Shown piece by piece: positions 26,951 to 39,049 of a stretch of 39,049 nt of DNA. A model generated the notes under the pieces. The model was not told the origin of the DNA and made no database searches. It saw only the letters and a list, made by a program, of their open reading frames with translations. The stretch comes from Cyanobium sp. N5-Cardenillas (GTDB taxonomy: Bacteria; Cyanobacteriota; Cyanobacteriia; PCC-6307; Cyanobiaceae): contig NZ_JAGQBG010000003.1 in the NCBI RefSeq assembly GCF_024345515.1, positions 1 to 39,049 on the forward strand, in the 5' to 3' direction. Within the stretch, counting starts at the first letter, position 1, and the number at the start of each line of letters is the position of its first letter. The translations under genes and the position numbers were made by a program.

Positions 26951-26965
26951 GCCTGCCCTTCAAGT

Positions 26966-27014: not shown

Positions 27015-27187
27015 ATGTCTTGGAGATTTCCTTGGCTGGTGCTTAGGCGATCAGCGGGTATCTCCCTCAGCGGCCATCTGGACTGTGTACGAGCCAAGGC
27101 TTCGATCCCCACGGAACCCATCGCCAGATTGACGGTGTCAGCACGCCCGGTGCATAAGGTGGAGTGTCTGCTGACAGAGAGGGTCAC

Positions 27188-28153
27188 GTGAACGGCATAG
27201 GGCGCAGAATTCCCCTGGCTCTGTTCACCTACAACCGACCGGCCCATACAGCGGCCACCTTGAAAGCTCTCTTTGCCTGCAAGGGGAGGGAGTCCTTCGA
27301 TTTCTTCTTTTTCTCCGATGCCCCCCGGCGCCCCGAGGATCGTGAGTCCGTCGAAGCAGTTCGTCGTCTGCTCAGGGAGCAGGCGCCACTGTTCGATGCG
27401 GAAGTTATCGAGCAATCCACAAATCAGGGACTGGCCCGCTCGATCGTCGGAGGCGTCGATCGACTCTGTGCTTCCCATGGCTGGGTTGTCGTTCTCGAGG
27501 ACGATCTACTCGTGGAGGTTTCATTCCTTGAGTTCATGGCTGTGGCCTTGGTCTATTATGAACATCGTTCTACCGTGATGCAGGTGGGCGCCACAACTCT
27601 TGCGCCGCCGCAGCGTCAAACGGGTGGTGCTTTTCTGCTGCCGGTGACGACTACCTGGGGTTGGGGAACCTGGCAGAGAGCCTGGAAGTCCTTCTCCTGG
27701 ACTCCGCAAGGGTGGCCACAATGCGCTGACGATGCCGACTGGTTGTCTGTATTTCAGCTGGGTGGAGCCTCTGATTATGTAGCAATGCTGGAGGATCGTC
27801 TTGCCGGCCGCAACGATTCCTGGGGCATCCTCTGGTGGTATGCGGTCTCCCGGGTGAGGGGAAAGGTGGTGTACCCCTCCCGCAGCCTTGTTCGCAACAT
27901 CGGCTTTGATGGAACGGGAGTTCACTGCGGCAAGGAGTCACTCTTCGAATTCCCCGAGCATTATGGGGCACACGATCGGGACTGGTCTCATGGAGGTGTG
28001 AACTTCCCCGAGGAGGATGATGTCTGTGCTGCTGATTACCAACTCCTTCAATCCGTTCTGAGCGGAAGGTCCACCACTGTTTCTTCCTGGAGGCTGCGTT
28101 GGAAGAACATCATTTCTATTCTCAAAGGACGAATCAACCGTGGCTTGGTTTGA
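27188..28153 (+). CDS. glycosyltransferase, GT2-like (GT-A fold)
   Basis: The N-terminus RIPLALFTYNRPAHTAATLKALF is the nucleotide-binding start of a GT-A glycosyltransferase, and VVVLEDDLLVEVSFLEFM carries the Asp-rich metal site (EDD). TTTWGWGTWQRAW in the middle resembles acceptor-loop signatures of this subfamily of hypothetical LPS glycosyltransferases. No membrane segment is present. The start is GTG at 27188 with GAGAGGG five bases upstream; a GTG at 27164 is in frame but has its Shine-Dalgarno-like bases too close. Length is then 321 residues. The donor and acceptor are unknown. It opens the island operon and overlaps the next gene by 14 bases. Confidence 0.82.
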   Translation: MNGIGRRIPLALFTYNRPAHTAATLKALFACKGRESFDFFFFSDAPRRPEDRESVEAVRRLLREQAPLFDAEVIEQSTNQGLARSIVGGVDRLCASHGWVVVLEDDLLVEVSFLEFMAVALVYYEHRSTVMQVGATTLAPPQRQTGGAFLLPVTTTWGWGTWQRAWKSFSWTPQGWPQCADDADWLSVFQLGGASDYVAMLEDRLAGRNDSWGILWWYAVSRVRGKVVYPSRSLVRNIGFDGTGVHCGKESLFEFPEHYGAHDRDWSHGGVNFPEEDDVCAADYQLLQSVLSGRSTTVSSWRLRWKNIISILKGRINRGLV

Positions 28154-28751
28154 CCCGCTGCGCCAGCACGTCCGAAGGGTGCTGACCCGGGCTCACTCGG
28201 ATGGGAGAGCGTCCAGCAATCGAATGGCAGATTTTGGTACTGATGCCTGCCTGGGTTCAGAAGGAGTGATCGAGAATTTTCGAGGTGATCCTGCCTGTAT
28301 CCGCCTGGGACAGCATTCCTACTGCCGTGGGCGTCTTTTAACCTATGGCCATGGTGGGCATATCAGCATTGGAGATTGGTGCTACATCGGAGTGCGCAGT
28401 GAGATCTGGTCCATGGAGTCCATTCAAGTTGGTAATCGAGTTCTGATCGCCCATGATGTGAACATCCATGATGGCACTGCCCATTCGCATGACCCCCTTG
28501 AGCGTCATCGTCATTTCCGCCAGATCATTGAGCGCGGCCATCCGCGCACGGCTGCCGAGTTGCCTGGAGTCAGCTCATCGCCCATCGTCATCGAAGATGA
28601 CGTCTGGATCAGCTTCGGTGTGACCATCCTCAAGGGGGTCCGCATTGGCGCTGGTAGTGTGATTGCGGCGAGATCCGTGGTCACCAAGGATGTGCCAGCA
28701 GGCATGTTGTACCGGAACCAGCTCTTTCCTATCCTTGAGCCATTGCCCTGA
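28140..28751 (+). CDS. left-handed beta-helix acyltransferase (WbbJ/maltose-acetyltransferase-like)
   Basis: The 203 residues form a hexapeptide-repeat protein: imperfect [LIV]-G-x4 repeats run through HISIGDWCYIGVRSEIW, IQVGNRVLIAHDVNIHDG, IVIEDDVWISFGVTILKGV and IGAGSVIAARSVVTKDVPAGM. The His in AHDVNIHDG/TAHSHD is at the usual catalytic position. Such enzymes O- or N-acetylate sugars using acetyl-CoA, as trimers. The start is GTG at 28140 (MAWFDPLRQHV) with AAGGACG upstream, inside the 3' end of the glycosyltransferase gene. O-acetylation of the surface glycan is the likely role by context. Confidence 0.85.
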   Translation: MAWFDPLRQHVRRVLTRAHSDGRASSNRMADFGTDACLGSEGVIENFRGDPACIRLGQHSYCRGRLLTYGHGGHISIGDWCYIGVRSEIWSMESIQVGNRVLIAHDVNIHDGTAHSHDPLERHRHFRQIIERGHPRTAAELPGVSSSPIVIEDDVWISFGVTILKGVRIGAGSVIAARSVVTKDVPAGMLYRNQLFPILEPLP

Positions 28752-28762
28752 CACCGCCGCCC

Positions 28763-29734
28763 ATGCGACTCTCCAAATCCTCATTGGCACGGTTGATCAG
28801 CGAGCCGGTACTCAATCAATTGCAGTCACTGCTTTCCGGCCAATTCATGTCCGTTGGAGCGCAGCTTGACCACCAACTGATGTTGCAGGGCCGTGCTCTT
28901 GCGGTGCAGAATGCGCAGCGATCCCCATTGAGCATGTTACAGGAAGCGGAATTCAAGGTTTTTTCTCAATACGGTGAGGATGGCATCCTTCAGTACCTTA
29001 TTCGAGAAGCTGGCATCACCCGAGACGAACAGATATTCATCGAGTTTGGCGTGCAGAACTATTTGGAGTCAAACACAAGGTTTCTTCTTCAGAACGATCA
29101 CTGGAAAGGCCTGATCATTGATGGTAGTACTGCCTACATGGAGTCAGTGAGGCGAAGTGAATTGTATTGGCGTCACGACATCACGGCCCTGGCCGCGTGG
29201 ATTGACAGGGACAACATCAATGACCTTTTTCTTCAGTCTGGCTTTCGTGGGCAGATAGGCATTCTGAGCATAGATATTGATGGTAATGACTATTGGGTCT
29301 GGGAAAGGATTGAGGCTGTCAATCCTGTGATTGTTGTAGTGGAATGGAACAGTGTGTTCGGACCCGATCATGCAGTTTCCATTCCCTATGATCCCGCTTT
29401 CGACAGGGCGTCAGCACATTATTCCTGTCTGTACTGGGGTGCTTCCATGGCGGCCTTTGAGTCTTTGGCGGATCGAAAAGGCTATGCACTGCTTGGTTCC
29501 AACAAGGTCGGCAATAATCTATTCTTTGTGCGGCGGGATCGTTTGGGCTCCTTGCAGCCCCAGACAACCAGATCGGCCTACGTTGAATCGCGCTTCAGAG
29601 ATTCAAGGGACAATCAGGGGCGTTTGAACTTCCTGAGTGGGCGCGCTCGATATGATCAGATCAAGGACTTACCGGTGATCGAAGTCATCACAAACGCGCT
29701 CACCACCTTGTCCAGCTTGGAACAATCGTGTTAG
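28763..29734 (+). CDS. uncharacterised FkbM-like protein in polysaccharide cluster
   Basis: The central part resembles the FkbM methyltransferase fold: FSQYGEDGILQYL, then FIEFGVQNYLESNTRFLL with GLIIDGS (in the place of motifs I-II) and ILSIDIDGNDYWVW with VVVEWNSVFG. The usual FkbM SAM-binding glycine motif is reduced to EFG, so methyl transfer is possible but unproven. The N-terminal ~60 residues are a Leu/Gln-rich helical region. Proteins of this kind recur in O-antigen clusters as hypothetical proteins. ATG at 28763, 11 bases after the acyltransferase; the last seven bases overlap the possible start of the next gene. Confidence 0.65.
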   Translation: MRLSKSSLARLISEPVLNQLQSLLSGQFMSVGAQLDHQLMLQGRALAVQNAQRSPLSMLQEAEFKVFSQYGEDGILQYLIREAGITRDEQIFIEFGVQNYLESNTRFLLQNDHWKGLIIDGSTAYMESVRRSELYWRHDITALAAWIDRDNINDLFLQSGFRGQIGILSIDIDGNDYWVWERIEAVNPVIVVVEWNSVFGPDHAVSIPYDPAFDRASAHYSCLYWGASMAAFESLADRKGYALLGSNKVGNNLFFVRRDRLGSLQPQTTRSAYVESRFRDSRDNQGRLNFLSGRARYDQIKDLPVIEVITNALTTLSSLEQSC

Positions 29735-30621
29735 GGTCCTTCAATGGAAAGTGTGACAGTCACCTGATGGGAGGTTTGACTTGGTCGCAAGCCGTGCAGA
29801 TGCTACGGGAGGATCCGGAGCAGCAAGCCCTCGTCAAAGCCTGTTATTACGACGATCCGCTGCAAGAGGCGGCCGACCGGTTCTGGCGAAGTCTGGAATG
29901 GAAGCTGATTTCTGAGTACCTGCCGAATGTTCCTGGAGATGCCCTGGACCTTGGTGCAGGTAGGGGCATCAGCAGCTATGCCCTGGCCCGTGATGGCTGG
30001 CGTGTAACGGCGCTTGAGCCGGATCCAAGCCCACTGGTTGGTGCCGAGGCCATTCGATCACTCGCTGGCGAGACCGGGTTACCGATCCAGGTTGTCAGTG
30101 ACTATTCCGAGACCCTTCCCTTTTTGGACGGCAGCTTTGATCTTGTCCACTGCCGGCAGGTCCTGCATCATGCACAGGACCTCCTGCAGACATGCAGGGA
30201 GATTGGTCGTGTGCTCAAGCCCGGCGGTATGATGATTGCCACCCGTGAGCATGTGATCAGTAAGCCTGAGGATCTGCAGACCTTCCTGGATCAGCATCCG
30301 CTCCACCATCTCTATGGAGGAGAAAATGCTTTCATGCTTCGGGACTATACGCATGCGATACGATCCGGAGGGCTCAGTATTATTCACACGCTGGCGCCAT
30401 TTGACTCGGCTATCAATTATTTTCCCGCAACAGATCAGCAGATTTACAATCTCTGCTTGGGGTACTTATCCCGGTTAACCGGAAAGCGCATTGCGACTCA
30501 CTTGGTAACGAACTCTCTTTTTGGGAATCGTGTGTTGGAACTTTGCAGAAAGGCATCCAACACCATCAATCAGTCGCCCGGGCGACTCTATTCTTTTGTG
30601 GCCATAAAGCCCCATGGCTGA
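29728..30621 (+). CDS. class I SAM-dependent methyltransferase
   Basis: The Rossmann-fold methyltransferase motif I is ALDLGAGRGISSYALA (about 70-85), motif II ends in ALEPDPS, motif IV is FDLVHCRQVLHHA and motif V is EIGRVLKPGGMMIATREH. This is the Methyltransf_11 type seen in many sugar and lipid methyltransferases. The GTG at 29728 overlaps the previous stop and gives 297 residues; ATG at 29767, 13 codons later, is an alternative. The stop overlaps the ABC permease start as ATGGCTGA. O-methylation of a surface sugar is the likely role by context. Confidence 0.8.
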   Translation: MLGSFNGKCDSHLMGGLTWSQAVQMLREDPEQQALVKACYYDDPLQEAADRFWRSLEWKLISEYLPNVPGDALDLGAGRGISSYALARDGWRVTALEPDPSPLVGAEAIRSLAGETGLPIQVVSDYSETLPFLDGSFDLVHCRQVLHHAQDLLQTCREIGRVLKPGGMMIATREHVISKPEDLQTFLDQHPLHHLYGGENAFMLRDYTHAIRSGGLSIIHTLAPFDSAINYFPATDQQIYNLCLGYLSRLTGKRIATHLVTNSLFGNRVLELCRKASNTINQSPGRLYSFVAIKPHG

Positions 30622-31468
30622 TCCTTCGTCCCTTGTTCGTAGTTATTCACCAAGACGAACGTTCCAGACTCCGATTCGCTCGATAGCGATGGCTTGGAGA
30701 GAAATCTATGTTTCTCGCCACGTGATATGGCAACTCTTCGCACGTGATTTTGTCGCCAATCTGCGGCAAAAAGTCTTGGGTTATCTTTGGGTGATCATCA
30801 CTCCTTTGCTTGCCATAGCAAGCTTTGTATTTTTGAATTATGCTGGAGTGCTGAATCCAGGTGAGATGAGTATCCCCTACCCGCTGTTTGTCTACATTGG
30901 CACAAGTCTTTGGGCGCTGCTGATGGCAACGATTACAACTGTCGCCAATGGCTTGATTGGCAATTCAGATCTAATAATCCGTACCAATATTCCAAAAATA
31001 GGCCTTTCTCTTACTGGCTTGGCCAACGTTCTCTATAATTATATTGTTGGAGTCGTGTTGCTGCTTGTTGTTTTTGCTTTTTTTAGGCTTTCACCGCACC
31101 CTGGCATCCTCCTATATCCCATTGTCAGTCTTCCCATCATTGCCTTGGGCGTGGGAGTCGGGCTTGTTCTTGCGGTGGTTGGCACCGTTGCCAGAGATGT
31201 GACCCCCATCGCCGTGAGCATTCTGGGATTGCTGATGTATGTCACGCCTGTCGTCTTCAACGCGGATCTCTCCAATCCTGTGCTTCGGCGCATCATCATT
31301 GCCAACCCCCTGACCTACCTGGTGGATACTCCAAGAAGCTTGGCGACGCTGGGAGTGATTCCCAGCCCCATAGGTTATTTCTTGGCCACCCTGCTTTCTT
31401 TGGTCATGCTATGGATTGGCATCCACGCGTTTTATCTTGTGCAAGACAAAGTGGCGGAGAGATTATGA
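30614..31468 (+). CDS. wzm: ABC-2 type polysaccharide export permease (Wzm-like)
   Basis: The 284-residue protein has about six transmembrane segments (roughly 60-80, 95-115, 135-165, 170-195, 200-220, 255-275) and the cytoplasmic N-terminal interface-helix pattern LIWQLFARDFVANLRQKVLGYLWVIITPL typical of Wzm/TagG (given in part here as ARDFVANLRQKVLG). These permeases export lipid-linked O-antigen or teichoic-acid chains completed in the cytoplasm. Wzt follows after one base. The AT-rich codon use (ATA, TTA, AAA) contrasts with the core genes. Confidence 0.9.
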   Translation: MADPSSLVRSYSPRRTFQTPIRSIAMAWREIYVSRHVIWQLFARDFVANLRQKVLGYLWVIITPLLAIASFVFLNYAGVLNPGEMSIPYPLFVYIGTSLWALLMATITTVANGLIGNSDLIIRTNIPKIGLSLTGLANVLYNYIVGVVLLLVVFAFFRLSPHPGILLYPIVSLPIIALGVGVGLVLAVVGTVARDVTPIAVSILGLLMYVTPVVFNADLSNPVLRRIIIANPLTYLVDTPRSLATLGVIPSPIGYFLATLLSLVMLWIGIHAFYLVQDKVAERL

Positions 31469-31469
31469 C

Positions 31470-32819
31470 ATGAGATCTGACCTTTCCCTCGTTGCTCATC
31501 ACGTATCCAAAAAATTTGGCTTGACCCTCAAGCAGTCACTTCGTTATGGCCTCAGGGATATGGCCAAGACTTTTCTTGGCGGTCGGGTTTCGACAGATCA
31601 GCTGCGCCAAGGTGAGTTTTGGGCAGTTCGTGATGTGAGTTTTCAGCTCGAAAGGGGTGAATCTCTCGGCATCATGGGAGTTAATGGTAGTGGCAAGAGC
31701 ACTCTGCTGAGAATGCTGAACGGAGTCTATGCCCCGGATGCAGGTCATATTCAGATTCGCGGACGTGTCGCTGCTTTGATTGCTGCTGGAGCGGGATTCG
31801 CTCCCATGCTTTCTGGAAGAGAAAACGTGTATATCAACGGTGCTCTATTGGGTCTGACCAAGAGGCAGGTAGACGCGCTAATTGATGAGATCATAGCTTT
31901 TTCTGAGCTGGAAGAGTTTATCGACTTGCCTGTTCGCAACTATTCTTCTGGCATGTTTGTGCGTTTGGGATTTGCCATTGCAGCATTAAGTCGACCGGAC
32001 GTCCTGTTAATGGATGAAGTGCTGGCCGTTGGCGATCTTAACTTTCAAAAGAAGTGTTTTGACTGCATTCTAAGTATGAAGAAGCAGGGCACTTCTATCA
32101 TCCTTGTTTCCCATTCCCCTGGTTCCATTTGGGCCGTTTGCGACCGAGGGCTGTTCATGGATCATGGACACGTCGTTGTCGCTGGCACAGCGGAGGATAT
32201 CGTTCGTGCCTATGACGACCAGAATTCTCGAAATGCGGTTGAATCAAACCTGCGGTTTTCAGCAGCGCATACAGCAACTACACATGCGGATATCACACTG
32301 ATGGAGAAGGAATCATTGCCTGCCCCATCCCGCGGCCAACTTCAAAGTGTAGACGGTGTTGTCTGCAGAGAGTTTCGCATCCTGTCAAGGCAGAATGGTG
32401 CTGAAGTCTGTGAAATTGACTTTCATGAACTGGTTGATCTTCAATTGGTGATTGACGTCTACCAAGTGACCAAGAATGTATCCGTTCGCGTGGTGATTGA
32501 TGCTTCACACTACAAGAACATATTGGTACTGGATAGCTATGAGCAGGGCCTCATGATTGATGAGCTTTTGCCGGGGCGCTACTCTTTTAAGATTTCTTTG
32601 CAAGCCAATTATCTCCGGCCTGGTGCTTATACATTCAATGTTACTGTTATCAGTAAGCACGTCGCAGCCCACCTTTCGCTGTGGCTCAAGTGTGCCACTA
32701 TAGTCATCAGAACACCGAGGGACCTGTTCCTTTATGCAGAGCCCTTGGCGGTAGTCCACCTTCCCGCTACATTTAGCTGCCAACCGCTGTTGGCCGACCA
32801 GAGGTCACTTCATGCTTGA
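31470..32819 (+). CDS. wzt: ABC transporter ATPase for polysaccharide export with C-terminal glycan-binding domain (Wzt-like)
   Basis: The 449 residues contain an ABC ATPase (about 1-245): Walker A GVNGSGKST at 70-78, signature NYSSGMFVRLGFA, Walker B VLLMDE at 178-183 and switch His in LVSHS. The loop FWAVRDVSFQLERGESLGIMG and the insertion before it fit the polysaccharide subfamily. Residues about 290-449 are a beta-rich domain of the Wzt C-terminal type (LQLVIDVYQV, ISLQANYLRPGAYTFNVTV), which in E. coli O9a binds the chemically capped end of the chain. The ATG at 31470 is one base after the permease stop; the frame opens further upstream inside the permease. Stop overlaps the radical SAM start (ATGCTTGA). 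Confidence 0.92.
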   Translation: MRSDLSLVAHHVSKKFGLTLKQSLRYGLRDMAKTFLGGRVSTDQLRQGEFWAVRDVSFQLERGESLGIMGVNGSGKSTLLRMLNGVYAPDAGHIQIRGRVAALIAAGAGFAPMLSGRENVYINGALLGLTKRQVDALIDEIIAFSELEEFIDLPVRNYSSGMFVRLGFAIAALSRPDVLLMDEVLAVGDLNFQKKCFDCILSMKKQGTSIILVSHSPGSIWAVCDRGLFMDHGHVVVAGTAEDIVRAYDDQNSRNAVESNLRFSAAHTATTHADITLMEKESLPAPSRGQLQSVDGVVCREFRILSRQNGAEVCEIDFHELVDLQLVIDVYQVTKNVSVRVVIDASHYKNILVLDSYEQGLMIDELLPGRYSFKISLQANYLRPGAYTFNVTVISKHVAAHLSLWLKCATIVIRTPRDLFLYAEPLAVVHLPATFSCQPLLADQRSLHA

Positions 32820-33846
32820 TGTCCAGACAAATCATTTTCAAGCACTTTCTTCCTATGAAGACTGTGCAATGTTGTTCTCAGAATCCGTCACTAATGTCAT
32901 TATTGAGATCTCCAAGCACTGCAATCGGTCTTGTGACTATTGCCCTGTAGCGGCTTCGGATCGTGCATCCAGTGCAGAAGTGTTTCGCGAAAACCTGTAT
33001 GAATCAATAATCCGAGACTTGGCCAAGATCAATTACAGTCAGAGTATTTGCCTTAATCTCTACAATGAGCCTTCCGCAGACAGAGCTCTTTTGCTGAAGC
33101 GCATTCAGTTTTGTCGAGAAGTATTGCCTGATGCGAGGATATATTTTAGCAGCAATGGCGATTATCTGACGGAAGATTATATCCATGCAATGGTTCAGGC
33201 GGGACTATCGGAACTCTATGTCACGCTTCATTTGGCCAAAAGTGAGCCCTATTCGGACGCCAGCGCAATCTCCCGCTTTACTGAATTCTCTGCACGATTA
33301 GGAAAGCCTGTAAAGATCCATACAGCATCACCGAATCACACTATACAGGGAAATCTCAGATTGCACGGACTTCCAATCACGGTGTTTTCCACCAACTACA
33401 TGTCGTATGGATCTGACCGGGCTGGTTCCGTTGCATCCATTACGAATTCCGAGTTCAAGCGGACGTCTCCCTGTAATCGCCCCTATCAAGACTTCACGAT
33501 TTCTTACAACGGCATCGTGTTTCCCTGTTGTCAAATGTTTGCGGACAATCCAGAGCACACATCGAACTACGCTATTGGAAATATTTCTGAGTATGAGTCT
33601 ATCTTCCATGCCTATGCCTCATCTGCCATGGCCGGCTGGCGTCGTGATCTTCTACGGGAAAGTCCCAAGATGACGCCCTGTGAATCCTGTACAGAGGGTT
33701 GCTATGAAGTCTCCCAGGCTGAACGTGAACAGCGAGATGCTCTGTATAAGGAGTACGTTGGACCCATCTTGGATTCTCGTGTGATCAACCAATCGAGTCG
33801 ACTGCGAAACCGGATTCGCTCCCTTTTCAGTACGAAGCTTGTTTGA
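32812..33846 (+). CDS. radical SAM protein with SPASM-like C-terminal cysteines
   Basis: The [4Fe-4S]-SAM motif is C37-x3-C41-x2-C44 (HCNRSCDYC). The TIM-barrel core follows, with LNLYNEPSAD (GGE-like position) and IYFSSNGDYL. The C-terminal half carries C221, C239, C240, C290, C293 and C297, arranged like a SPASM/twitch auxiliary-cluster domain (PCNRPY, VFPCCQMF, PCESCTEGC). 344 residues. Radical SAM/SPASM enzymes modify peptides, sugars or other substrates by hydrogen abstraction; the substrate here is unknown. Both ends overlap neighbours by eight bases, so it is integral to the glycan operon. Confidence 0.88.
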   Translation: MLDVQTNHFQALSSYEDCAMLFSESVTNVIIEISKHCNRSCDYCPVAASDRASSAEVFRENLYESIIRDLAKINYSQSICLNLYNEPSADRALLLKRIQFCREVLPDARIYFSSNGDYLTEDYIHAMVQAGLSELYVTLHLAKSEPYSDASAISRFTEFSARLGKPVKIHTASPNHTIQGNLRLHGLPITVFSTNYMSYGSDRAGSVASITNSEFKRTSPCNRPYQDFTISYNGIVFPCCQMFADNPEHTSNYAIGNISEYESIFHAYASSAMAGWRRDLLRESPKMTPCESCTEGCYEVSQAEREQRDALYKEYVGPILDSRVINQSSRLRNRIRSLFSTKLV

Positions 33847-34729
33847 CGTGTTTGTCGATATCCGTCGCAATCTCTGCGCTCGTCTCCACTCCAGGCTTCG
33901 CCAGATTGGCAGGAAGATTATGTCAATGCCGCTCATTAATCGCTGGCATATCGCACCAAGAGACGGTTTTGATCTTATCCCTAGTGGCCAATATGATTAT
34001 GTACCAAAAGGTACCTATGTTTATGGCCTAGCCTCTCATTTCCTGATCGTCCCCAAGAATCGCTATCGTCTTAATCTGCTTCCTGGCATGGAGGTATCTG
34101 ATGAGAATGGAATAGGTTGGATCACTGAGGAGAATACCTCTAGTGGCTACGATCTCCTTTGGGGTAAGGAAACCAATCTAGAGCTCTTTCGAGAGGAGGG
34201 CGGGCATGTCCGAGATATGTTGACGGGGGAAATTGTTGATTACGTAGAAGGAAGTCTGCCGGTTGCTGGAAAGATCGTCGATATCGGATGTGGTGTCGGT
34301 GATCTTTTGGCGGAGGTACTTCAGCGTCGGCCTGATTCTGCACTCCACGGCCTGGATTTCTCAGAAAAGGCGATCGAGGGAGTTCGGGCAAGGTTTAACT
34401 CAGAACACTTCATGCGCCATGTGATTGAGCATGATCTACCTTATGCCTCCCATGAGTTTGATGTGGTTTTCTGTACTGACGTACTAGAACATCTTGAAAG
34501 ACCCAAGTTGATTGCTTCGGAACTTGTTCGTATATGTCGGCCTGGAGGCATGGTAGTTATCGTTGTTCCAGACGGCGACGTTGATCAGTTTCTTGGCCAC
34601 TACTGGTTTTGGAACCAAGAAAGCTTATCCTTATTGTTGGCTGAATGGGAGCCTCAGGTGATCCGCTTACCCGCGACACGGGAGTTCCTTGCTCGCATTC
34701 TGGTTCCTTATGGGAGAGAGGCCGAGTGA
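33839..34729 (+). CDS. class I SAM-dependent methyltransferase
   Basis: Motif I is KIVDIGCGVGDLLAEVL, followed by HGLDFSEKAIEGV, then DVVFCTDVLEHLERP and ICRPGGMVVIVVPDG. An N-terminal segment of about 100 residues before it (including HIAPRDGFDLIPSGQYDYVPKG) may be a separate substrate-binding portion. Length is 296 residues from TTG 33839, which overlaps the previous stop; GTG at 33848 or ATG at 33920 are alternatives and the true start is undecided. The stop overlaps the next gene as GTGA. Confidence 0.8.
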   Translation: MFDVFVDIRRNLCARLHSRLRQIGRKIMSMPLINRWHIAPRDGFDLIPSGQYDYVPKGTYVYGLASHFLIVPKNRYRLNLLPGMEVSDENGIGWITEENTSSGYDLLWGKETNLELFREEGGHVRDMLTGEIVDYVEGSLPVAGKIVDIGCGVGDLLAEVLQRRPDSALHGLDFSEKAIEGVRARFNSEHFMRHVIEHDLPYASHEFDVVFCTDVLEHLERPKLIASELVRICRPGGMVVIVVPDGDVDQFLGHYWFWNQESLSLLLAEWEPQVIRLPATREFLARILVPYGREAE

Positions 34730-35625
34730 TCAAGGCGAGACTTCAACCGCGCCAGCGACTAGACAGGGCTCTATTCAAGTTGTTGAAGCTGATGGTGGAC
34801 AGACTTGCTGTTTCACCCCTGCTCTCAAATACTGACAGTCTGGTGGATTTGGTTTGGACACTACATCCACTCATCATTAATGCAGCAAACGCCGGAAATG
34901 GGGAAATCAACCCCCAACTTCTCACAGCGCTGAGGTCTCTCCTCGCATCTGGGTTGCCAACGGATGCTCAATCCCTGATCCCCTCATTGGCGCGACGGGA
35001 AAGCCCAGTAGAAAGCACGTGGACGTACCAAAACCAGTCCATGCATTGGGACATCCAGTCCAGCGATCGGGTTCTCGACGTGGGTTGCGGAGGTTGGCCA
35101 TTTAAGCATGCGACTCATCTAGCTGATAAATATCCGGAAACCACTACGCATCGTACGGAAAGTCTGGCACGTGATCATCGACCATTTCATCAAGTCGATT
35201 TAGAACAGCTGCCATTCTCGGATAAGTCTTTCGACTTTGTGTTTTGCTCGCATGTCTTAGAGCATACTGACAATCCTGGTACAGCCATGCGCGAGCTTTG
35301 TCGGGTGGGCAAGCGCGGCTATGTAGAAGTGCCCACGAGGCTCTCTGACGTGATGTTTAACTTTACCCGCCTGGAAAACCATCACAAATGGCATGGACTT
35401 GTGGTTAAGGATACAGTGATTCTAATTGAATGGAGCGACTCGGAGCGTCGAGAGCTTGGCAATGAATTCTACAACGAACTGCATAGCACCTATGACAATA
35501 ACTTTCAACGCTTCTTTGCCAGAAACCGCGCTCTATTCTTTGCTTCTCTACATTGGAATGAAGAGCTCAACTTTCTCGTAATCGATAAGTATGGAAACAT
35601 CGTAGACGCGAAAGGGGCATCTTAA
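34726..35625 (+). CDS. class I SAM-dependent methyltransferase
   Basis: Motif I is RVLDVGCGGWPFKHATHLA, motif IV is FDFVFCSHVLEHTDNP, and the following VGKRGYVEVPTRLSDVMF with ENHHKWHG is typical of methyltransferases found in surface-glycan clusters. An N-terminal helical part of about 95 residues precedes the catalytic fold. GTG at 34726 gives 299 residues; it overlaps the previous stop as GTGA and has GAGAGG upstream. The frame opens further back but only into the previous gene. Confidence 0.82.
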   Translation: MIKARLQPRQRLDRALFKLLKLMVDRLAVSPLLSNTDSLVDLVWTLHPLIINAANAGNGEINPQLLTALRSLLASGLPTDAQSLIPSLARRESPVESTWTYQNQSMHWDIQSSDRVLDVGCGGWPFKHATHLADKYPETTTHRTESLARDHRPFHQVDLEQLPFSDKSFDFVFCSHVLEHTDNPGTAMRELCRVGKRGYVEVPTRLSDVMFNFTRLENHHKWHGLVVKDTVILIEWSDSERRELGNEFYNELHSTYDNNFQRFFARNRALFFASLHWNEELNFLVIDKYGNIVDAKGAS

Positions 35626-35630
35626 GTGCC

Positions 35631-38381
35631 ATGACACTCTACACAAATGACCTGCGCTGTGTCTCTTGCGATCGAGAGACTGTTCTGGCAGCTACTGATG
35701 CGGGACTTGTCTGTAGGTGCTGTGGTGCTGATTATGCCAATGTCTGGGGTGTTCCATTCATCGGGAGCTATGAAGCCGAGGATGTCCTTGGACTGATCGA
35801 GATTGCTGCCAACTCCCGTAACCGCGGCAACTTTGGCCTTTCGCCGGAAGTAGTTGAATCCTGGGAGAAGATGTTATCTGAGTATCATGACGCTTGTGAT
35901 AAGGAGGCTTACTGCAAAAGTCAAGACGACCAACATCGGCAGTGGCTGCAGCATCGGTATGGAGAATGGCTGGAAGTCAATCATCTTTCTAGCGATATTC
36001 AGCTAAAGGGCATGGATGTCTTGGATATTGGAGCGGGGTTAGGGTTTGACAGTCACCGTCTCGCCATGCGAGGTGCCAACGTCACGGCGCTGGAGTTCTC
36101 TCCTCTCCTCGCGGAGGCAGGTAAAGCACATTTCCCCCACATTAGATGGATTGGTGGTTTTTCCCATGTCCTCCCTTTTAAGTCAGGCAGTTTCGATGCA
36201 GTTTTCTGTAATGCTGCTTTGCATCACATGCGCGATATCCCAGCTGCATTATCTGAGGCTCTACGCGTCTTAAGGCCTGGGGGCTATTTGATCACGACTT
36301 GCGATTCGTTCTGTCCCAGCCACGCCAAGGAGGATGCCGAGCTATCTATATTTGATGCAGAGCCGTCTGTTCTTCTTGGTGTTAATGAGCGCGTTCCACG
36401 CTTTTCGGAATTTGTAGAGACTCTCGTTCGTCACTCAGAAGTTCTTGAAGTTCAGTTGTTCACCCATACGCTCTACAACGCACCATTCCATGGAACGCTC
36501 ACATCGTTAACACCATGGGACTTCACTAAAGATAGGACGATGCTGGAGACACGTAGTGGCTCTCTGGCGATGCGGATTCGCCTTAAATCCGCCTGGCAGG
36601 AGCAAGCTAATCGCCAGCATGGTTCCCTGCTGGCACCTCGTCAGTATGCTGATTGGCTTGCATCCGGGTCTTCTGCAGTTTCCCGCCTTGCACCTCTGAT
36701 TCCAACACACTACCTTGATCTTGCTTTCCCCGGTGAGGGTGGATCCAAGTTTGAAATGCTCAATGGCTGGCGCCTCCCCCGCCCATTTCAGTATGCACGT
36801 ACGGGGTATCGCCGTGGACGATGGTTCCTGCGCCGTCCTGCAGATGCGGATACGCTAGCGTTTGAGATTGGCCTTCCCCATGGCCTTGGTGGGGCGCCCA
36901 GTGGTTTTCAGGTCCTACTGGATGGCAAGACTATTGATGAGTTTGTTCTCGCACTTGATGCCTGGATGCCTGTCAACGTTGATGTGGCGCATATTAACCC
37001 GGGGCAGGCGTTCGCGATTGAAATAATAAAGTCTGAAGGCGACGATAGCCTTGACGGCGCTGCCTTTGTTGCTCGTGATCGCCGTTTCGTCCGAGCTTGT
37101 ACGTCTGATCCTCAGAGAACTGCTCCGACTGTCTACGCTGTGATCCCAGTATATAATCGCCTTCAATACACCCTTTCCTGTATAGCCTTTCTTCAAGCAC
37201 AGGACTATGTATCGTTGCACATCATCGTATCCGATGGCGGGTCGAATGATGGGACAGTAGATGTGGTGCGAAATGTTTTCCCAGATGTTACGGTTCTAAC
37301 CTCCAAACAGGAACTATGGTGGGCTGGCTCCATGGCAGCGGGTGTTATCCATGCTATTAGCGAGAGCACTCATGATGAAGACTGTCTTCTCATGATGAAC
37401 AATGATACCGAGATCCCGGTCAATTATGTCTCCACTCTCGTTTCGGCCTCGCAGCGCTTTAATGCAGCAGTAGGTTCACTCATCGTTGACCGTAATGACA
37501 CGACCCGTATTCTTGATGCCGGTGAGTATGTGTCTTGGCCGACTTATTCGTTCCCGGTGAAGAACTCTATCGAGCGATCAGAGCTGTTCCGCGATGACGT
37601 CGACTTTCTCCCAGGGCGTGGAACTTTAATCCCATTGTGGATGATACTTCAAGCGGGTAATGTGGATGCCATCAACTTTCCCCACTATCTCGCTGACTAC
37701 GAGTATTTCTACAGGTTGAAATCTGCGGGTTTTCGTCTTGGGGTCTGCTACGAGACCCGCTTATTGGCTTTGATTCAGGAGACAGGCATTGTTCCTGGAG
37801 CCGGAGTCACTGACTTCCGTTCAGTGCTTCGCGAACTCTTTGCCCGTGCTTCTATGGGTAACGTCATCGATCATTGGAGGTTTGTCTCAAGGCATGCTCC
37901 CACTCGATATCGAGTCCTTATCCATATCCGAATCATCTTTGGTGCATTAAAGCAGCTGCTGCTGCGGACTCAGTTGCGCCCAGCCTTCCTTCCTCTTTAC
38001 TACTGTGTTCACTTCATCAAAAATCAAATTCAGTCCTTTTATCGCCTACCCTCTAATCTTCGCGCCCATCGCATGCAGATTGTGTGCAACCCGCATCTCT
38101 TCCCCTCTCTAGTTCGGCTGCCGATATACATGATCTTTTGCCCTGGGCTTCTTCGAAGTAGAGACTTTGATCGGCTTAGGGTCTCTCCTGGTGATCTTGT
38201 GGCCAAGGGATTAGTTAAGGAGTGTTCTTTGCCAGGCTGGTATCAATTTGTAAGGATCAGCTGGGATGAACTCTCTAGTCAGCCTGTCCTGCGCGCCCTT
38301 TTTATTCGGGCCTGGAACCCCATCCTCAAACCGACCAGGCTGCTTCTCGTTTGGCGTATGCGTAACCGAACACAGCCGTAG
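35631..38381 (+). CDS. four-module protein: zinc ribbon, methyltransferase, beta-sandwich, GT2 glycosyltransferase
   Basis: The 916 residues read as: a zinc-ribbon-like start with C10, C13 and C28/C30/C31; a class I methyltransferase (motif I LDIGAGLGFD at 131-140, ALEFSP, FDAVFCNAALHHM, LRVLRPGGYLI); a beta-rich domain around 365-485 (FEIGLPHGLGGAPSGFQVLLD in part) that looks like a carbohydrate-binding sandwich; and a GT2 glycosyltransferase from about 500 to 760 (VYAVIPVYNRLQYTLSC, SDGGSNDGTVD, MMNNDTEIP, PGRGTLIP), with a hydrophobic/basic tail to 916. The GT part most resembles rhamnosyltransferases. ATG at 35631, five bases after the previous stop. A single enzyme that both transfers and methylates a sugar is my inference. 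Strands and helices in the middle are not certain. Confidence 0.82.
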   Translation: MTLYTNDLRCVSCDRETVLAATDAGLVCRCCGADYANVWGVPFIGSYEAEDVLGLIEIAANSRNRGNFGLSPEVVESWEKMLSEYHDACDKEAYCKSQDDQHRQWLQHRYGEWLEVNHLSSDIQLKGMDVLDIGAGLGFDSHRLAMRGANVTALEFSPLLAEAGKAHFPHIRWIGGFSHVLPFKSGSFDAVFCNAALHHMRDIPAALSEALRVLRPGGYLITTCDSFCPSHAKEDAELSIFDAEPSVLLGVNERVPRFSEFVETLVRHSEVLEVQLFTHTLYNAPFHGTLTSLTPWDFTKDRTMLETRSGSLAMRIRLKSAWQEQANRQHGSLLAPRQYADWLASGSSAVSRLAPLIPTHYLDLAFPGEGGSKFEMLNGWRLPRPFQYARTGYRRGRWFLRRPADADTLAFEIGLPHGLGGAPSGFQVLLDGKTIDEFVLALDAWMPVNVDVAHINPGQAFAIEIIKSEGDDSLDGAAFVARDRRFVRACTSDPQRTAPTVYAVIPVYNRLQYTLSCIAFLQAQDYVSLHIIVSDGGSNDGTVDVVRNVFPDVTVLTSKQELWWAGSMAAGVIHAISESTHDEDCLLMMNNDTEIPVNYVSTLVSASQRFNAAVGSLIVDRNDTTRILDAGEYVSWPTYSFPVKNSIERSELFRDDVDFLPGRGTLIPLWMILQAGNVDAINFPHYLADYEYFYRLKSAGFRLGVCYETRLLALIQETGIVPGAGVTDFRSVLRELFARASMGNVIDHWRFVSRHAPTRYRVLIHIRIIFGALKQLLLRTQLRPAFLPLYYCVHFIKNQIQSFYRLPSNLRAHRMQIVCNPHLFPSLVRLPIYMIFCPGLLRSRDFDRLRVSPGDLVAKGLVKECSLPGWYQFVRISWDELSSQPVLRALFIRAWNPILKPTRLLLVWRMRNRTQP

Positions 38382-38416
38382 TCGCTTTCCATGACCTCAA
38401 GGATCAACTACTCCGC

Positions 38417-39049
38417 ATGATGCGCCAAACGACAGACCTAACTATCGGGATAGAACTCATCAATGACAAGACGTGGATGGGCGGCACCATCTATCTTTCA
38501 AACCTGGCTCAATGTGTTTTCAAGCTTCCTCTCCAGGAGCGTCCCAAGGTTCGACTTCTTGGTGATCCGGAGATGGTGAGTGCTGTCCAAAAGGCTATCG
38601 CGCTGCAGCCAGGCAGGATTCCTCAAGAACTGTCTGCATTCCCTCATAGGCGTCTGCGTGATATCTCTTTCATGGGCCTGATCCCTGGTTTGCTTACGCG
38701 TCTCTTCCGACGATCTATCGAACCTGTAGATATCCTTTACCCTGGTTTCGGCTTGACTATTCCCGGGGCCAAAACAATAAGATGGATTCCCGACTTCCAG
38801 CATCGATATCTTCCGAATCTCTTCTCTGCAGATGAGATTCATGCTCGCGATGAATCCATAGGTAAAGTGGCTTCAGGGCAAGGCATTGTTATTCTCAGCA
38901 GCCAGGTGGCTCTTGATGACTTTCGACGCTTCTTCCCTGATTCAGTTGCAACTCCTCGTGTTTGGTCCTTCCATTCACTAATCAACTTGTCCCAAGGAGT
39001 TCCAGCCGATGAGTCTTCTTTCACTCTTGAGCTGCCCTCAAAGTATCTC
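38417..39049 (+). CDS. glycosyltransferase, GT4-like N-terminal domain, 3' end beyond window
   Basis: The reading frame from ATG 38417 stays open to the window edge, 211 residues. It begins MMRQTTDLTIGIELINDKTW with MGGTIYLSNLAQ, the glycine-rich N-terminal loop of GT-B fold glycosyltransferases, followed later by DILYPGFGLTIPGAKTIRWIPDFQHRYLP, where IPDFQH..LP is the usual motif of GT4 family members. The catalytic C-terminal domain with the EX7E motif lies outside. ATG at 38420 is an equally good start. It follows the four-module gene by 35 bases on the same strand. Confidence 0.78.
   Translation, partial: MMRQTTDLTIGIELINDKTWMGGTIYLSNLAQCVFKLPLQERPKVRLLGDPEMVSAVQKAIALQPGRIPQELSAFPHRRLRDISFMGLIPGLLTRLFRRSIEPVDILYPGFGLTIPGAKTIRWIPDFQHRYLPNLFSADEIHARDESIGKVASGQGIVILSSQVALDDFRRFFPDSVATPRVWSFHSLINLSQGVPADESSFTLELPSKYL

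Follow-up and report, generated by a model that had tools for sequence, protein, structure and literature searches.

A methyltransferase–glycosyltransferase fusion in a horizontally acquired Wzm/Wzt O-polysaccharide cassette of Cyanobium sp. N5-Cardenillas

The window analysed here is the whole stretch of 39,049 nucleotides of contig NZ_JAGQBG010000003.1 from the picocyanobacterium Cyanobium sp. N5-Cardenillas. From position 27164 to the contig end, eleven genes on the same strand make up a polysaccharide cassette (Table 1). One of them, g10, joins a methyltransferase (MT) to a family 2 glycosyltransferase (GT2). An earlier note on this DNA had read it as one protein of 916 residues, and the frame indeed runs through its 916 codons without interruption. 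Within the cassette, we also notice a radical SAM/SPASM protein, g7. The contig ends inside g11; the genes of the cassette that follow, among which there may be a terminator, lie beyond it.

Table 1. Genes of the cassette and parts of the g10 protein, with their positions in the window.
Feature	Position	Strand	Evidence or remark
g1, distant GT2-like protein	27164..28153	+	45% to B11
g2, hexapeptide acyltransferase	28140..28751	+	69% to B11
g3, no Pfam or NCBIfam family	28763..29734	+	63% to B11
g4, class I methyltransferase	29728..30621	+	Pfam
g5, Wzm-type ABC permease	30614..31468	+	54% to B11
g6, Wzt ATPase with C-terminal glycan-binding domain	31416..32819	+	60% to B11; C-part 42%
g7, radical SAM/SPASM protein	32812..33846	+	Pfam
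g8, class I methyltransferase	33839..34729	+	Pfam
g9, class I methyltransferase	34645..35625	+	its B11 homologue immediately precedes the stand-alone GT2
g10, zinc-ribbon(?)-methyltransferase-middle domain-GT2-C-extension protein, 916 aa	35631..38381	+
g10 Cys4 zinc-ribbon-like motif (C10, C13, C28, C31)	35658..35723	+	motif positions; no family above cut-off
g10 class I SAM methyltransferase core, residues 126-222, motif I LDIGAGLGFD	36006..36296	+	Pfam, AlphaFold, Foldseek
g10 middle domain, residues about 330-490	36618..37100	+	33% identical remnant in Sinorhizobium sp. B11
g10 GT2 (GT-A) core, residues 499-710, NND and HYxAD motifs	37125..37760	+	Pfam, homologue alignment, AlphaFold, Foldseek
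g10 C-terminal extension, residues 711-916	37761..38378	+	the GT2 of Sinorhizobium sp. B11 is the only other protein in which it was seen
g11, glycosyltransferase, cut by contig end	38417..39049	+	B11 homologue is GT group 1

The cassette carries a Wzm/Wzt pair with a C-terminal Wzt domain, which marks it as an O-polysaccharide set of the ABC-transporter type. In g6, the Wzt_C family scores 20.9 bits, below its cut-off of 30.4. The glycan-binding domain that the earlier note had assigned to Wzt is nevertheless supported through the homologue in Sinorhizobium sp. B11, which scores 35.3 bits, above the cut-off, and is 42% identical in that part.

The third-position GC content (GC3) is 0.93–0.95 in mutS, rfbA and rfbC of the same contig versus 0.47–0.61 in the cassette run. 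MutS of the contig is 93–97% identical in many genus-mates, and photosystem reaction-centre genes are present in the genome. On such sequence grounds, the contig can firmly be taken to belong truly to this picocyanobacterial genus. In three genus-mates, the nucleotide identity is 94.6–95.8% up to position 26951, the end of a gene which we take from its sequence to be psbZ, and a different Wzm/Wzt cassette follows. Since the identity stops there and different Wzm/Wzt cassettes lie beyond, the site behind psbZ is a cassette-exchange site. The cassette is a foreign, horizontally acquired Wzm/Wzt O-polysaccharide set directly behind this gene.

A counterpart lies in another phylum, on plasmid p1 (CP091033.1) of Sinorhizobium sp. 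B11. Ten genes are collinear between 27164–39049 in Cyanobium and L041 2966–14024 in B11, with 45–69% protein identity. The B11 cluster retains the transporter, the C-terminal Wzt domain and three other methyltransferases, of which the g8 copy is truncated. It is damaged: the C-terminal half of the radical SAM protein and the N-terminal part of g8 are missing. The counterpart of g10, LVY75_00065, is a stand-alone GT2 of 446 aa that is 48% identical over g10 residues 499–903 and has the same gene neighbours. In contrast to g10, it begins directly where the g9 homologue ends, with neither a methyltransferase nor a middle domain joined to it. Because the cluster is damaged, it may once have had the MT module and lost it, in which case its present form would not be the ancestral one; we tentatively favour a gain in Cyanobium over a loss in B11. 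The cassette swap and the synteny with Sinorhizobium are more informative than the fusion itself. A foreign cassette behind psbZ bears on how the surface of picocyanobacteria may be varied in defence against phages and grazers.

The two enzymatic parts of g10 that the earlier note had named are both confirmed, and the motifs LDIGAGLGFD (131), VIPVYNR (504) and SDGGSNDGT (534) lie where it had placed them. In the N-terminal half, Pfam Methyltransf_11 matches residues 131–221 (E 8e-20), and motif I is intact. AlphaFold, on a shallow alignment, gave a class I core with pLDDT 77–90 around residues 120–220, for which Foldseek lists TleD, RebM and AtmM as the nearest PDB folds. The modelled core thus looks like that of O-methyltransferases acting on small molecules and sugars, for example AtmM and RebM. 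Its closest relative within the genome is g4 (43% over 128 residues). Compared with g4 of Cyanobium and of B11, the g10 methyltransferase is 28% and 26% identical, and being equally distant from both, it forms a separate subfamily. Upstream, the cysteine pattern CVSC (10–13) and CRCC (28–31) fits the zinc ribbon claimed earlier, but no zinc-ribbon family passes its cut-off at the N-terminus (best A2L_zn_ribbon, E 0.026).

In the C-terminal half, the sole Pfam GT2 match is Glycos_transf_2 on residues 503–633 (E 8e-16). AlphaFold and Foldseek place the GT-A core near WrtF, SpsA and other GT2 structures. Further motifs are MMNNDTEI (588) and FPHYLADYEY (683); N590, D592, H685 and D689 are invariant among 14 homologues. 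The fold, the DXD-like motif and the catalytic motifs together identify a GT-A glycosyltransferase. Residues 711–916, which the earlier module order had overlooked, form an extension shared with the B11 GT2, for which no family match was found.

The remaining part of that module order, a beta-sandwich in the middle, is not borne out. No Pfam family matches residues about 330–490, no PDB sequence match exists for this part, and its pLDDT is about 25–49 in both AlphaFold models, including the region 360–490, the models being built on shallow alignments that left out the B11 sequences. On these three grounds, the beta-sandwich is not established. The middle domain could bind glycan or do something else. 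About 21 kb from its cluster, Sinorhizobium sp. B11 has a 95-aa remnant that is 33% identical to g10 residues 334–402. This remnant (L055 7338–7625) is truncated and stand-alone, is ended by a stop and adjoins a transposase-like frame. Five other picocyanobacterial genomes gave weak matches to the middle domain. These were taken as chance, with their context examined in three of the genomes; they sit on or beside unrelated conserved genes, and the best one (genome G143) fell in no assigned gene. A match in Azospirillum thermophilum that spans the middle domain into the GT2 is an over-extended GT2 alignment.

The MT–GT fusion is genuine and has to date been seen in Cyanobium sp. N5-Cardenillas alone. 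No full-length relative was found in the sampled genomes (399 of the order, 42 of the genus and 358–386 of the phylum), in plasmid and phage records or among viral contigs, and a peptide-pattern scan of genome contigs for relatives returned distant GT2s only. Such a singleton raises the question whether assembly or metagenome binning has artificially joined two genes: the genome is a draft of 210 contigs, 85% complete, and there is no independent copy of the junction. We consider this very improbable: the flanking g9 and g11 match the gene order of B11, GC3 is similar (0.46–0.52) in each of the four segments of g10, and the contig's place in this genus is firm.

On the other hand, the two halves might act independently in one pathway, the fusion being an accident of gene order, a read-through of adjacent genes with no coupling between them. 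The separate GT2 in B11 fits this reading, as does the restriction of the fusion to one genome, which leaves the coupling of the two activities unsupported by conservation. However, the junction is in frame without a stop, and no start codon lies close upstream of the GT2 core, the nearest candidates being GTG at residue 452 and ATG at 446. We therefore regard independent halves as distinctly unlikely.

With somewhat better than even confidence, we take g10 for a fusion specific to its lineage, by which a sugar is added and the glycan O-methylated while the repeats are being assembled. In this reading, g10 would be a cytoplasmic bifunctional enzyme of polysaccharide assembly in the acquired cassette, whose GT2 half may extend the polyprenol-linked chain by one sugar. 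The first 490 or so residues, comprising the zinc-ribbon-like start, the class I O-methyltransferase and the middle domain, would have been fused in frame between g9 and the GT2 as one module, and this module most likely O-methylates the just-added sugar or a neighbouring one. Sugar addition and decoration would thereby be coupled. The substrate, the coupling and the role of the middle domain are our reading of the domains and their neighbourhood, with which the earlier suggestion of one enzyme for both adding and methylating a sugar appears to be consistent; the alternative offered beside it, chain capping, fared less well.

Comparison with known systems bears on this second suggestion. Few MT–GT fusions are known from glycan pathways that depend on ABC transporters, and those characterised also act as terminators; no ruler, as far as we know, has been reported for one of them, WsaE. 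WsaE of Geobacillus stearothermophilus, in a Wzm/Wzt-dependent glycan cluster, joins an N-terminal methyltransferase to two GT domains and is assigned a terminal 2-O-methyl cap that Wzt recognises (PMC2943079). Compared by description, g10 likewise has its methyltransferase N-terminal to the glycosyltransferase in one chain of a Wzm/Wzt glycan cluster, but possesses one GT2 instead of two GT domains, together with the zinc-ribbon-like start, the middle domain and the C-terminal extension. ORF6 of Klebsiella pneumoniae O7 consists of a methyltransferase, a kinase, an Ig-like CBM, a long coiled coil and two GT2 modules, and cyanobacterial orthologues have been reported (PMC11231755). It shares with g10 the order of N-terminal methyltransferase, extra domain and GT2 in one chain; it differs in the kinase and coiled coil between these parts, for neither of which g10 has a match, although the middle domain could hide an atypical fold. 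MT–GT fusions are thus already known, and it is the domain set of g10 that differs.

A coiled-coil ruler is present in the terminators of the ABC-transporter pathway that have been characterised from Klebsiella and E. coli (PMC11231755). In g10, no coiled coil was detected (maximum score 1.03, P 0.003) by a COILS-type calculation that had GCN4 (P 1.0) as its one positive control; nor was one detected elsewhere in the Cyanobium cassette or in the B11 cluster. At E<0.1, Pfam gave no kinase match for g10. WbdD of E. coli O8/O9a (PMC3482155) contains a coiled coil and no glycosyltransferase; its O9a form has a kinase as well, which the O8 form lacks. It resembles g10 in its N-terminal class I SAM methyltransferase, its ABC-transporter O-antigen system and the glycan-binding domain of Wzt, whereas g10 has a GT2 and neither a detected coiled coil nor a kinase. 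The 60 PDB sequence matches listed for the g10 methyltransferase do not include WbdD. Lacking a detected coiled-coil ruler, g10 falls outside the WbdD type.

A WsaE-like terminator is nevertheless conceivable, in which the GT2 half elongates the chain, the fused methyltransferase caps the non-reducing end by O-methylation, and the C-terminal domain of Wzt recognises the cap and exports the chain. Besides the two known fusions, the C-terminal domain of the Cyanobium Wzt and the middle-domain remnant near the damaged B11 cluster are in its favour. The undetected ruler and kinase argue against it, as does the absence of the MT module from the syntenic B11 cluster, which has kept the Wzt C-domain and the three other methyltransferases, one of them truncated. 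Judged from their shared presence in both gene sets, these three would be better candidates for a conserved cap. Since the B11 cluster is damaged and WsaE is a terminator for which we know of no ruler, we hold a WsaE-like role of g10 to be unlikely rather than remote. We regard as quite improbable a variant without a coiled coil, in which the middle domain would grip the glycan, present the chain end to the fused methyltransferase for capping and in this way set the length. On balance, the evidence favours a routine part in building and decorating the glycan over a chain-stopping switch.

Set side by side, g10 and its natural, un-fused B11 counterpart would allow a clean comparison of how the glycan is altered by the fusion and by the extra methyltransferase. 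As a separate observation on the cassette, relatives of g3 occur in 16 of 373 cyanobacterial genomes, Cyanobium sp. N5-Cardenillas included, and also on Azospirillum and Spirosoma plasmids, some of them beside Wzm/Wzt.
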